Program-made: the position numbers and the translations under genes
IMG/VR virus record: IMGVR_UViG_3300006121_000055
Span: 1-22,598 of that record
DNA length: 22,598 bases
Strand: one strand, 5' to 3'
From: a virus
The notes under the pieces: model-generated
What the model saw: the letters and a program-made list of their open reading frames with translations, nothing else
Database searches by the model: none
What the model was told of the DNA's origin: nothing
Shown: piece by piece, positions 12,637 to 16,029 of the stretch
Layout: the number at the start of each line of letters is the position of its first letter
Position numbering within the stretch: position 1 is the stretch's first letter

Positions 12637-15600
12637 TTATTGATACCAGTTCTTATAGAAGTCTTGCAGAGCTGCCCCGTCGGTTTCTTCGACAGTTTCC
12701 CAGATCAGACCAACGCTTCTGTAATATTTAGGGTTTTCTACTTCTTCAACTTCATTATAGAATGGAAGAGGCATTTCCTCCTCAATTTGTTTCATTTTCT
12801 CTTGATATAATTTCTCACGAATGTCAAAACTGGTTAAATCTCTAAAATAAGGTTGCGAAGTCAGCCAAGCAAATATGACCAAACACATCGCCAAGTCGTC
12901 ATTTGACCCTTCTTCAGCGGCATAAGTTTGATCTCGTTTCATTACAAAGGTAGAAAGTTCTTCAATAACATTAAAATCTTGAATCAATAAACGTTGATTC
13001 TCAATTAATTCTTTCAGCGAGTTACATCCTTGACGTTTACTTCTTTTTGTGGTCTTAATACCTAATTGTTTGGCTCGTCCTTGAGTCAAATAATATCTTC
13101 CGTTGGCTTCTTCGCCGTGGAACATGTTGTCGTATTCTAATTCGTAGAACGTTAAATCTGCAACCTGAGCACCAACGTCATTATTTTCAATTAATAGGTA
13201 AGCCTCATTATAATGTTTAGCTGTTTGCACCAGTACGTCTGGAAAGTGCATTGGTGAGATGGTATTGTTTCTATATTTGGCAGCAATTGTAAATGGTTCT
13301 TTAGAGGTATTAATTACCAAAAATGCAGAATAGTCTAAAGCCTGACCTCTTGACGAGTCGACTGCCATTACATAAAAGTTTCCTGGAACTGGTTCTTCAT
13401 AAATTTCCAATTTACCATCAAACTTAAGATCTATTGGTCTTGAGAAAGCCATACTTCCTAGAGCCGCTGCTGAGATCAATGTTCCAGCAGAACCGAGGAA
13501 TGTACAGTTATGAGAAACTAAATCGTTTGTATAATAACGACTCCACTTATCGACATTAACTAAGTCATAAACATATTTTTGTTCTTTTACTCCAATTATT
13601 TCTTTAACAATTTTATTAGAAAGAACTTGTCCAGATTTAACAAAATTAGCATAAACGAAAGTGTGTTGGTCTATCTCAAATAAATGATCTTTTGTACAAA
13701 TAATGTCGCTATTGTCTGTAAATGTTATTTTTATTAGATTTGAAGAAAGCTTTCTTTTAATATTAGAAAAATCTGACCAACCATCTGGAGTCAATACTTC
13801 ATATTGATTATTAATTTTATTTTCTAACATCGATAGTCTCAATTCTATTTTAGAATAAAGTTCTCCTATTGTAATTTTTTCTATGTTCCCAGTATTTTTA
13901 TTTCTAACTGTTATAACAGTATCTTCACCAACACATTCCATTTCTTGCATGTACTTCTGTTCACCAAGTACACGTCTTTGTCCAGCAGCCCAAGCATCGT
14001 CACGACCTGGAACTTGACGCCAGTTTGCCTCAATAAAGTGGAATCCGTTTACACCTTCTTCGGCTTCTTTCCATATACGATAAAAGTGGTTCATACCATT
14101 TGGCGTAGATGAAATTAGAATCTTAGAAGTTGTACCAGAAGAAATCGTTGGGAATACTGAGGTGAAGAAGTCTTCAGCAACGTTGTTAGGAACGAACGCA
14201 AATTCGTCAAGATACAAAAAGTGAATTGTATAACCACGAGCTGCGGAACCTGACGTTGAGTCAGCGATGATACGGCATTTGTTTTCTAATTCAATGTCAC
14301 CTTTGTTCCATGCAGTAATACCTTGCTGCATCCAAATGGGTATTTGTTCGTATGCGAATTTGATACGATCTAGAATTTCACGAGAGGTTTTAGCTTTGTT
14401 AGCAAGAATCGCGACTAGTTTACCTTCGTCAAATAAAATGTACCATAACAAATAACCGACAACGGTGGTTGTATTATGACTCAATATTCCATTTGTATAT
14501 AATCTATGATCGTTAGAATTAACTGTCAAATCAAACATGTTTGATTCTTTATCAGTTTCATACACACTAATTACAGTTTCAGGACCATTCTCAGTTAATA
14601 TTTTTGTACTATTTGGTTTAAGGTTTTTAATAAATGTTTGATTTCCATAAGCATCAAAAACTATATGATCATCAGCGCAAATTAATTTTTTACCACTTAT
14701 CGTTTTTACTACCCATTCTTTATATTTAATTGTTTTATGGATATGTGTAATTGGAACCCAACCAGAATCTGATGAGACTTCCCAATCAGAAACATTAATT
14801 GATCTTACAAATTTTCTTTCTACTCTGTCAGAAAGTTCAGACATGCTCGAATTTGAGATTGGGGATCTTTGTTGTAGTCGTGTTCTCTCACTCTTAGTAT
14901 TAAAAAATTGTCGTTCATGATCATTTTTTGTCTTGCTTCTTCTTTCTTTTTGTTCGCTCGAACTCCATTGTGCCAATAATCCCCATCGAATTCTATTATT
15001 TTCTTTTTCTCCAAATCTATAAAATCTGGCATCACCGTATTTCCGCTGCTTAATTTCAAACGATATTCCTTGTTCTTGTACTGGTGCATATCTGGACGCT
15101 CCCAAGTTGCAAAATAAACTGTTTCTGAAGAATAATCTTTCATAATTTGATTGAATAGCTTTTGTGAAATTTTTGAATAATTTTGTTTCTTGAAGTTTTT
15201 TAACCACTTTGCTTGTCGTTCTGCCCAGATTTCTTTTCCTATTTCCTCCCCATGCTCTCGCACACACTTCTCCAAAGAAAATGTTGATTGTCTTTTTGAA
15301 AGAAGTTTGTTGGCTAATTTTTGATTGCCGTTTGTTTTCTTTAGCCAATAATCTAGCGTTGTCGTGCAGTTTCCATTTTTCTTTCTTTTTTCCATCCCCT
15401 TCTTGAATATTTCTTCTTGCCTCCCACCCTTGACGAATTTTTCGGAAAAAGGAGAGAATTTTCCTCCATGCTGGTATGCGGGGTTCTTCGCGCCTTGAAC
15501 TCTCTCTGACGCTCTGTTTATTAGAAATTCCGAAACCAAGGGAGTGTTGGGATACATCTGAGTATATTCCAAGGTAGTCATCTTGTGTGTATTTTTTATG

Positions 15601-16029
15601 TGAGAATGAAGTTGACTCATACTCCTCTTGCAAATCTGACACTCTACTGATGTATTCATAAAATTCTCCTATAGTCGTTTCAAAAATCTCACCACTTTTG
15701 GTGTTTCTTATTTTAACTATAGTATTTATAAAAAAACACTTTCCAACCTGACGACCTGCTTTTAAAACGATAAAGCGATTATTCTGAATATCTCTAACAG
15801 TTTGTTTCTGGAACGGATAAAGTTTTAATTTAACAAATCCACGGTCAATGGTATTAATCTCAACATAATTCTCAATAAAATATGTGGGATCTTCTTTACA
15901 TCTCATATATTCTTCGAGTTCTTCCTGCGACATAGGCACAGGAACCCCTGCTTTTTTAAGCTTGGGATTATTTAAGTAAATTTGTTTCTTACTTAATTTC
16001 TTCTGGATTATTTGCGCTGGTGTTGACAT
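12637..16029 (-). CDS. 17: Large terminase subunit gp17 precursor, interrupted by two inteins
   Basis: 1130 codons. Removing two inteins (residues 98-519 and 699-841) leaves a 565-aa extein product (T4 gp17 is 610). The spliced ATPase domain has Walker A AGRQVGK/TTTVVG (slash marks intein 1), Walker B FLYLDEFAF and coupling motif ISSTPNG. The second intein stands before the conserved Cys of CTFLGSAGTLIS. The RNase-H-like nuclease shows MAVDSSRG (Asp), LLIENNDVG (Glu) and EGSNDDLA (Asp pair). gp17 is the packaging motor and headful nuclease, bound to portal gp20. Intein 1 breaks the P-loop, so splicing is needed for activity. Codons 124-404 overlap a complete endonuclease gene in the +1 frame while staying open. 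The gene overlaps gp16 by 41 nt. Confidence 0.96.
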   Translation of the reverse strand: MSTPAQIIQKKLSKKQIYLNNPKLKKAGVPVPMSQEELEEYMRCKEDPTYFIENYVEINTIDRGFVKLKLYPFQKQTVRDIQNNRFIVLKAGRQVGKCFFINTIVKIRNTKSGEIFETTIGEFYEYISRVSDLQEEYESTSFSHKKYTQDDYLGIYSDVSQHSLGFGISNKQSVRESSRREEPRIPAWRKILSFFRKIRQGWEARRNIQEGDGKKKEKWKLHDNARLLAKENKRQSKISQQTSFKKTINIFFGEVCARAWGGNRKRNLGRTTSKVVKKLQETKLFKNFTKAIQSNYERLFFRNSLFCNLGASRYAPVQEQGISFEIKQRKYGDARFYRFGEKENNRIRWGLLAQWSSSEQKERRSKTKNDHERQFFNTKSERTRLQQRSPISNSSMSELSDRVERKFVRSINVSDWEVSSDSGWVPITHIHKTIKYKEWVVKTISGKKLICADDHIVFDAYGNQTFIKNLKPNSTKILTENGPETVISVYETDKESNMFDLTVNSNDHRLYTNGILSHNTTTVVGYLLWYILFDEGKLVAILANKAKTSREILDRIKFAYEQIPIWMQQGITAWNKGDIELENKCRIIADSTSGSAARGYTIHFLYLDEFAFVPNNVAEDFFTSVFPTISSGTTSKILISSTPNGMNHFYRIWKEAEEGVNGFHFIEANWRQVPGRDDAWAAGQRRVLGEQKYMQEMECVGEDTVITVRNKNTGNIEKITIGELYSKIELRLSMLENKINNQYEVLTPDGWSDFSNIKRKLSSNLIKITFTDNSDIICTKDHLFEIDQHTFVYANFVKSGQVLSNKIVKEIIGVKEQKYVYDLVNVDKWSRYYTNDLVSHNCTFLGSAGTLISAAALGSMAFSRPIDLKFDGKLEIYEEPVPGNFYVMAVDSSRGQALDYSAFLVINTSKEPFTIAAKYRNNTISPMHFPDVLVQTAKHYNEAYLLIENNDVGAQVADLTFYELEYDNMFHGEEANGRYYLTQGRAKQLGIKTTKRSKRQGCNSLKELIENQRLLIQDFNVIEELSTFVMKRDQTYAAEEGSNDDLAMCLVIFAWLTSQPYFRDLTSFDIREKLYQEKMKQIEEEMPLPFYNEVEEVENPKYYRSVGLIWETVEETDGAALQDFYKNWYQ
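13507..13935 (-). mobile_element. Intein 2 of gp17, a 143-aa mini-intein without endonuclease
   Basis: Precursor residues 699-841. It begins Cys-Val-Gly-Glu-Asp-Thr (block A CVGEDTVITVRN), has TIGELYSKI, then YEVLTPDGW, block B ICTKDHLF with the Thr-x-x-His pattern, and ends YYTNDLVSHN before Cys+1. The penultimate His and terminal Asn required for Asn cyclisation are present. In block F the His seen in many inteins is replaced (KWSRYY). There is no homing endonuclease, so it is either a degenerate or a minimal form. Block spacing and residues match intein 1 closely (same TIGE(F/L)Y and EV....GW landmarks, 30 residues from Cys1 to the Ile after TIGE), so the two are sister inteins at different sites in one host protein. 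Confidence 0.93.
14820..15659 (-). CDS. Vsr/EDxHD-type homing endonuclease nested out of frame inside gp17 intein 1
   Basis: 279 aa in the +1 frame relative to gp17. An N-terminal zinc finger (CQICKRSMSQLHSHIKNTH, then a MTTLEYTQMYP segment) is of the type found in phage endonucleases. A middle part with CVREHGEEIGKEIWAERQAKW and YSKISQKLFNQI is characteristic of a marine-phage endonuclease family. The C-terminal nuclease core VMPDFIDLEKKKIIEFDGDY / WHNG, ending LRVREHDY, matches the Vsr-like EDxHD fold (catalytic Asp in EFDG, His in WH, Glu-x-Asp in REHD). It has its own ATG with AGGAG 6 nt upstream, a TATAAATA late promoter 64 nt upstream, and a TAG stop. It therefore appears to be separately expressed and would mobilise the intein by cutting intein-less gp17 alleles. 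Cleavage activity is inferred. Confidence 0.9.
   Translation of the reverse strand: MNTSVECQICKRSMSQLHSHIKNTHKMTTLEYTQMYPNTPLVSEFLINRASERVQGAKNPAYQHGGKFSPFSEKFVKGGRQEEIFKKGMEKRKKNGNCTTTLDYWLKKTNGNQKLANKLLSKRQSTFSLEKCVREHGEEIGKEIWAERQAKWLKNFKKQNYSKISQKLFNQIMKDYSSETVYFATWERPDMHQYKNKEYRLKLSSGNTVMPDFIDLEKKKIIEFDGDYWHNGVRANKKKEEARQKMIMNDNFLILRVREHDYNKDPQSQIRACLNFLTE
15666..15670 (-). promoter_or_regulatory. Shine-Dalgarno site of the nested endonuclease, inside intein codons
   Basis: AGGAG on the minus strand, 6 nt before the ATG at 15659. In the gp17 frame these bases are part of the codons for T-I-G-E-F, a motif also conserved in intein 2 (TIGEL), so one stretch serves both splicing-domain structure and translation initiation. 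Confidence 0.85.
15723..15730 (-). promoter_or_regulatory. T4-type late promoter inside intein 1, for the nested endonuclease
   Basis: Exact TATAAATA on the minus strand, encoded by the codons F-I-N-T that begin intein 1 right after its catalytic Cys. It lies 64 nt upstream of the endonuclease ATG. Expression from a late promoter within the element recalls I-TevI in the T4 td intron. Confidence 0.72.

Follow-up and report, generated by a model that had tools for sequence, protein, structure and literature searches.

How can the coding sequence of an essential phage protein stay open across a complete second gene that is read in another frame? The question is raised by the terminase gene (gp17) of IMG/VR virus record IMGVR_UViG_3300006121_000055, positions 1 to 22,598 of which form the stretch of DNA analysed here (22,598 nucleotides in all, hereafter the window). 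On the minus strand, gp17 encodes a T4-type terminase large subunit in a single 1130-codon open reading frame (ORF) that contains two inteins and runs from 16029 to 12637 without a stop; inside intein 1, at 14820-15659 of the same strand, lies a complete 279-codon homing endonuclease gene (HEG) with its own ATG and TAG. An original prediction, made from the letters of the window alone, had described both frames as open and the third minus-strand frame as closed, and all three points hold, with 26 stops in the third frame against 0 in the gp17 frame. A small correction concerns the frames themselves: the HEG is at +1 relative to gp17, so that gp17, seen from the HEG, is at +2. Fractured genes, reportedly described by Dassa et al. 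(2009, NAR 37:2560), are said to consist of a split intein whose halves flank a free-standing gene for an EDxHD endonuclease. The window, to judge from its sequence and that of its relatives, very probably holds something else: an intein of the atypical-split-site kind that is mobile, probably splices in cis and contains the HEG within its coding sequence in another frame. The locus comprises the following parts.

12637..16029, minus strand: gp17, terminase large subunit ORF, 1130 amino acids (aa) with two inteins; matches Terminase_6N (1.9e-13) and Terminase_6C (3.6e-12)
15739..16029, minus strand: N-extein, aa 1-97, with the Walker A sequence GRQVGK^C at its C-terminal end; tblastn matches to T4-like terminases
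14473..15738, minus strand: intein 1, aa 98-519 (422 aa), C1...HN followed by a +1 Thr; assigned from AlphaFold/Foldseek and profile matches
15660..15738, minus strand: conserved N-intein piece (CFFINT...TIGEFY) upstream of the HEG start; predicted local distance difference test score (pLDDT) ~80 at residues 10-30
15666..15670, minus strand: Shine-Dalgarno-like AGGAG of the HEG, 6 nucleotides (nt) 5' of its ATG, overlapping the N-intein I-G-E codons
14820..15659, minus strand: nested free-standing HEG, 279 aa, +1 to the gp17 frame, with a zinc-finger-like N-terminus and a Vsr/EDxHD catalytic domain (IIEFDGDYWH)
14820..15659, minus strand: gp17-frame reading of the HEG segment, a stop-free corridor (0 stops) and predicted disordered intein loop
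14842..14844, minus strand: gp17-frame ATG at -24 from the HEG end, the C-intein start position of split relatives; no Shine-Dalgarno site in the window
14473..14823, minus strand: C-intein (VERKFVRSINVSDWEV...ADDH...TNGILSHN); pLDDT 80-92 over most of residues 310-400 and 62-73 at the C-terminus

Two open frames in one segment

The openness of the gp17 frame across the HEG was measured by codon shuffling, in which the HEG protein was kept fixed and gp17-frame stops were counted in 20,000 shuffles per sequence. Shuffling with a gene's own codons gave a mean of 15-19 stops and phage codon usage gave 25-28; a stop-free gp17 frame appeared in 0/20,000 shuffles, the lowest count being 6-14. Calculated exactly, an open frame has a probability of 10^-9 to 10^-14 if each gene keeps its own codon usage; usage taken from fractured relatives or from the downstream terminase lowers this to 10^-15 to 10^-26. 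The original prediction had put the chance near 1 in a million, which was right in calling the arrangement improbable but too conservative as a figure once the HEG protein is held fixed. In the other genes of the window, the longest open stretches in the same relative frame span 17-70 codons. A chance open frame is rejected by the shuffles, by the exact probabilities and by recurrence in seven lineages.

Two technical explanations were also discarded. An assembly or frameshift error is rejected: both frames are likewise open in other, separate assemblies that come from different samples, and sequencing error is further ruled out by relatives in which the same two frames are open while the HEG is only 52-60% identical to that of the window. 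Frameshift errors at the overlap borders, which the prediction had named as its possible undoing, are excluded by this recurrence in separate assemblies and diverged relatives. Stop-codon reassignment is rejected as well, since TAA, TGA and TAG are expected 54.7, 32.3 and 17.2 times over six lineages and all three are absent, which leaves no stop codon that is being reassigned.

The trace of selection can be read codon by codon. The gp17 frame acquires a stop when T is the last letter of a HEG codon and the next codon begins with AA, AG or GA; in six divergent open lineages, T occurs at 0/323 third positions of this kind. The avoidance is complete in every class: two-fold pyrimidine sites (0/87, always C; Fisher p 8e-44), four-fold sites (0/204; 1e-27) and isoleucine codons (0/32; 4e-8). 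The remaining two-fold pyrimidine sites favour T over C by 252 to 78, and fractured relatives use T freely at stop-creating sites. Between L003 and L005, two close relatives of the window, the overlap carries 46 differences, 33 of them at HEG codon position 3. Changes that are nonsynonymous in the HEG number 13 against ~31 expected; changes nonsynonymous in gp17 number 41/46 against ~30 expected, so that they are not depleted, and none makes a stop. The depletion in one frame and its absence in the other establish that the HEG is a real protein under purifying selection and that the gp17 frame across the overlap is an open corridor, selected only for the lack of stops and not a second meaningful protein. 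The constraint check proposed with the prediction was thereby carried through in both frames, with purifying selection in the HEG frame and total avoidance of T at dangerous third positions.

A conserved second protein in the gp17 frame is rejected on broader grounds too. Among divergent members the gp17-frame identity is 23-35%, about what the HEG proteins and the no-stop rule predict (z -0.1 to 2.8), and the similarity is no more than the HEG imposes, bar small excesses (z 2.0-2.8) in 5/15 pairs. Those excesses are what might favour a function for the corridor residues in the precursor, for example in the regulation of splicing or in DNA binding. Such a function seems very improbable, given the undepleted gp17-nonsynonymous changes between close relatives, the natural deletion derivatives without the loop (see below) and the predicted disorder of the region.

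Open and fractured relatives

Three kinds of query (the endonuclease, the C-intein together with the terminase, and the open set) brought in about 200 loci. They form two non-overlapping groups, open and fractured, with nothing in between. The open group, defined by 0 stops from N-extein to C-intein and an endonuclease at +1, contains L001-L005 (the clade of the window), L021/L022, L007, L176/L178/L179, L189 (partial), L038/L039 and L040, and represents seven HEG lineages with pairwise HEG identities of 49-62% aa among those of full length. Its members occur in lake and metagenome phages. The homolog search suggested with the prediction thus recovered the same overlap in seven divergent lineages, with no stop of any type. 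The fractured group comprises 56 loci with the same endonuclease family, mostly at the same site, and 15-72 gp17-frame stops. Measured against shuffling, the stop count of open members lies at z -4.0 to -8.2, and that of the fractured loci (n=56) has a mean z of -0.24 and a minimum of -2.6. Open and fractured HEGs nevertheless belong to one family and share one start position. The prediction had held that homologs closed throughout the overlap would speak for a split intein; such homologs do exist, as the 56 fractured loci, but none belongs to the supported HEG clade (99/92) that includes the window, which is open throughout.

Intein 1 moves. The window and L001/L002 share it at 1266/1266 identical nt, yet their N-exteins are 67.7% identical and the next 600 nt of their C-exteins 71.9%; an identical intein in diverged terminases implies a precise and recent transfer. 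From this 100% identity within terminases that are 67-72% identical, the HEG product may cleave the intein-free allele site-specifically. Closely related terminases (L007, L176, L190) carry open and fractured cassettes at the same site. In trees built apart for C-intein and C-extein (a mixed C-half tree had given four groups), open members are scattered among fractured ones in the C-extein tree, with seven changes and a single open clade rejected (approximately unbiased test, p ~1e-52); the C-intein tree shows a weak scatter (three changes, p 0.09). In the HEG tree, the open members form one clade (support 99/92) placed among fractured ones.

Which state came first can be argued either way. 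Taken literally, the HEG tree would have the open frame gained from a fractured state, yet this would mean clearing tens of stops without an evident stepwise benefit. Repeated loss from open ancestors would be mutationally easy, far easier than gaining openness, and the N- and C-intein of fractured relatives are often in one phase, as expected of an open ancestor. The fractured relatives were also examined for signs that they had once been open, which would show the direction, but this idea was rejected: their stop counts are at chance or equilibrium, and present sequences for that reason do not decide it.

Two loci have lost the loop. L019 has an L001-type terminase, and its intein lacks most of the HEG through a deletion that keeps the gp17 frame; L015 is a second deletion derivative that has likewise lost most of its HEG and kept the frame, so the loop is dispensable as long as the gp17 frame stays. 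The L015 intein (231-809) has the look of a recombinant mini-intein, with an N-side linker and HEG remnant like those of L176 and a C-intein protein equal to that of the window. Intein 1 of L004 also looks mosaic, the N-part of its HEG being L005-like and its C-intein protein identical to that of the window, a pattern that points to recombination inside the intein.

The overlap might also be of use to the HEG. The DNA of the HEG is shared with the frame of an essential gene, and an indel that inactivates the HEG would also destroy the terminase; the usual degeneration by frameshift would thereby be blocked, and the HEG could be removed only by exact in-frame deletion, as in L015 and L019. It is conceivable, although we hold it somewhat doubtful, that a distinct intein clade is spreading in which the overlap is adaptive, as a block to frameshift decay of the HEG, and that the dual-coding intein is a missing link between contiguous and fractured forms. 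If it is such a link, this is because both forms have the same site and starts, and often one phase, so that stops are the main difference between them.

Further variants surround this family. Mini-inteins at the intein 1 site are found in L012 (Vibrio phage VP-1), L046 and L051, and split inteins at the same terminase site, in which no endonuclease was detected, in L026 (about 1890-2576), L060, L070 and L085; the halves of these last four are two ORFs that almost touch or overlap. In L185 (3801-4753), the endonuclease gene and the C-intein lie ~0.9 kb apart, indicating a further insertion in a fractured terminase. L013 (Vibrio phage Va1, 1781-4066) has, at the second terminase site, an EDxHD-like endonuclease fused in frame ahead of the C-intein, and its N-intein ends at a stop; the annotation of this half-fractured arrangement reads merely 'terminase'. 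In L012 (914-4256), beside the mini-intein at site 1, site 2 holds an insertion that resembles a GIY-YIG endonuclease and is in frame with the N-part; the C-intein behind it is read in a different frame, and the annotation lists two separate terminase genes. L010 (Caulobacter phage Cr30, 2345-3367) has a free-standing EDxHD endonuclease gene immediately upstream of an intein-free terminase gene.

Probable expression and splicing of the two products

Both products have recognizable relatives. The host protein matches the terminase large subunit in PHROG (5e-59), and intein 1 is inserted at its Walker A motif (GRQVGK^C ... SHN^TTT); a PHROGs search gave no name for the intein or the HEG. The HEG product carries a Ros/MucR-like zinc finger at its N-terminus and the Vsr/EDxHD catalytic domain at its C-terminal end, where IIEFDG.YWH is invariant across the HEGs of open members. 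Its best solved match by profile is 3r3p, the catalytic domain of I-Bth0305I (E=7.5e-5), which is also the best Foldseek match of its model (E 0.044); the match to the Vsr profile (E=0.0017) is under the curated cut-off. The intein 1 profile matches VidaL and the Cat C-half. An AlphaFold model of intein 1, based on ten natural sequences, has mostly confident strands in N-intein and C-intein and a disordered overlap (residues 36-303, pLDDT <50), and all its top Foldseek matches are inteins (VidaL 4.3e-8, gp41-1 2.0e-7, and the Cat C-half too), of the atypical or the phage split type. The junction residues C1, HN422 and +1 T/S are invariant in open members. With a HEG start 79 nt past C1, a short N-intein and a C-intein of 117 aa, intein 1 fits an atypical split site. 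Self-excision is likely, given an essential and otherwise intact terminase and the recent horizontal spread.

The start of the HEG is marked in the DNA. Counted from the first nucleotide of the intein, its ATG follows after 79 nt in almost every open relative and in the majority of the fractured ones, and most of both groups have ATAGGAGA(A/T).TTTATG there, a Shine-Dalgarno site that doubles as the TIGEFY codons. It is extremely unlikely that ribosomes shift frame in the N-intein and make the HEG product as a fusion, without use of its own start: the HEG and gp17 frames do overlap at the N-intein and a +1 shift would join them, but AGGA(G) stands 6 nt 5' of the ATG, at a fixed place, in almost all open relatives and in most fractured ones; slippery sites were sought no further than by a reading of the junction. 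The Shine-Dalgarno site was perhaps already present and put to use, not newly made, since intein 2, which carries no endonuclease, has AGGAG-containing codons in its TIGELY motif too (ATA GGA GAA CTT TAT), with no gene start there.

13507..13935, minus strand: intein 2 of gp17, mini-intein of 143 aa (CVGEDT...LVSHN^C), no endonuclease; Pfam Intein_splicing match

The start of the C-intein is a different matter. In fractured relatives it is mostly an ATG 24 nt before the HEG end, and in open members the codon at -24 is ATG in the window, L004, L005, L021 and L176, GTG in three, and neither in L040. A Shine-Dalgarno site at this start was found in no open member, although its absence discriminates weakly, such a motif being present in only 18/50 ATG-bearing fractured relatives. 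A rival reading is that intein 1 is a true fractured split intein, its halves made separately with the C-intein from the ATG at 14844 and the open frame an accident or recent relic. The insertion site, HEG family and start position, common to dozens of true split relatives, agree with such a reading, as does the ATG itself. It is very unlikely all the same, for accidental openness has a probability of ~10^-9 or lower per full-length lineage and yet seven lineages are open, true split relatives sit at the chance stop count, and the C-intein start of open members has no Shine-Dalgarno site and is not even a start codon in L040, whose only apparent route to the C-half is read-through.

A mixture of the two routes, mostly read-through precursor with a minority of C-intein from the internal start that is spliced in trans, is unlikely, though less readily set aside. 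ATG or GTG is kept at -24 in most open members, and atypical split inteins of the same class are known to trans-splice (PMC11766414); yet the ATG follows automatically from a conserved Cys codon of the HEG when the preceding codon ends in A, no Shine-Dalgarno site accompanies it, and the start is not conserved in L040.

The likeliest reading is a cis-splicing intein with a nested HEG, which may work as follows. Gp17 would be translated in one piece, the DNA of the HEG being read in the gp17 frame as a meaningless loop of ~270 residues. To judge from intein motifs and fold, the N-intein (~35 aa) and C-intein (~117 aa) would form a HINT domain around the loop, which would splice the loop-bearing intein out and restore the terminase at Walker A. 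Other ribosomes on the same mRNA would initiate at the AGGAG and ATG that are embedded in the N-intein coding part, with the 279-aa EDxHD enzyme as their product. The outcome is seen in the precise copies of the intein in diverged terminases. Selection acts as described, on the HEG for its protein and on the gp17 frame for the lack of stops alone: a gp17-frame stop would truncate the essential packaging motor, unless the C-intein has its own start as in fractured genes. The prediction had spoken of one segment that encodes a spliceable precursor and a separate nuclease; homologs and constraint support the overlapping genes, and splicing of the precursor is probable from its motifs.

Several points weigh against this account. 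The model of intein 1 is only partly confident (mean pLDDT 48, predicted template modelling score 0.38, C-terminal residues ~62-73). The window keeps a gp17-frame ATG (14844) at the start used by split relatives, and some independent synthesis of the C-intein is possible. All open examples are uncultivated virus contigs; no open example was found in the named phage collection, and the genome collection gave one relative, which is fractured. Finally, the statistics count related lineages as separate.

The locus is of interest beyond its own mechanism. It offers a natural case of selection that holds a second frame merely open, in which the cost of overlap is readable codon by codon. With contiguous and split forms of one intein at the same site and with the same endonuclease family, the long-standing question of the origin or healing of split inteins and fractured genes becomes directly testable. 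Atypical-split inteins that apparently tolerate an arbitrary loop of ~270 aa at the split site would be useful for splicing engineering, and gene finders are warned that annotating the host frame alone hides the endonuclease.

Comparison with known systems

Classical LAGLIDADG and HNH inteins are also mobile and carry an endonuclease between their splicing halves, but there it is in frame; the HEG of the window is out of frame, has its own start and sits at an atypical, N-proximal split site. Fractured genes share with the window the EDxHD family, the phage gene context and the endonuclease gene between intein halves, and the fractured relatives found here also share insertion site, HEG start position and C-intein start position. 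They differ in a host frame closed by stops (15-72 here), with an N-intein that ends at a stop and a need for trans-splicing; the window has a free-standing endonuclease gene between the halves, yet its frame is continuous, with 0 stops from N-extein to C-intein and the HEG out of frame within.

In the proportions of its splicing halves, intein 1 resembles AceL-TerL, GOS-TerL, Cat and VidaL, with a short N-intein and a C-intein of ~104-117 aa, and the host of AceL and GOS is likewise a terminase large subunit. The N-inteins of AceL-TerL, GOS-TerL and Cat-TerL measure 25-37 residues and the Cat C-intein 104 residues (PMC11766414). Those inteins are split or engineered, whereas that of the window is contiguous, with a loop of ~270 aa at the split site. 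I-Bth0305I, a Vsr-like EDxHD enzyme, is the closest solved structure by sequence and fold, but it has been described as a group I intron endonuclease (PMC3943268), and the HEG of the window rides in an intein.

In the open-access literature, no intein was found to be described whose endonuclease is read out of frame. The nearest case is that of the ShiLan domain and the Pacc40 insertion (PMC11855218, 2025), where an HNH gene lies out of frame within a phage methylase ORF that stays open; there are signs of mobility, features of inteins or introns are absent, and a ribosome-binding site was not detectable. The prediction's statement that the arrangement is neither an in-frame fusion nor a fractured gene is borne out, but an out-of-frame nuclease in an open host ORF had already been published with ShiLan. 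In the window as in ShiLan, the host ORF runs uninterrupted across a whole endonuclease gene that is read in a different frame. ShiLan encodes an HNH enzyme and has no splicing domain; the window has clear intein halves in the host frame, a Shine-Dalgarno site, and AT-rich DNA in which an open second frame is highly improbable. The parts of this system are known, and their arrangement is new.

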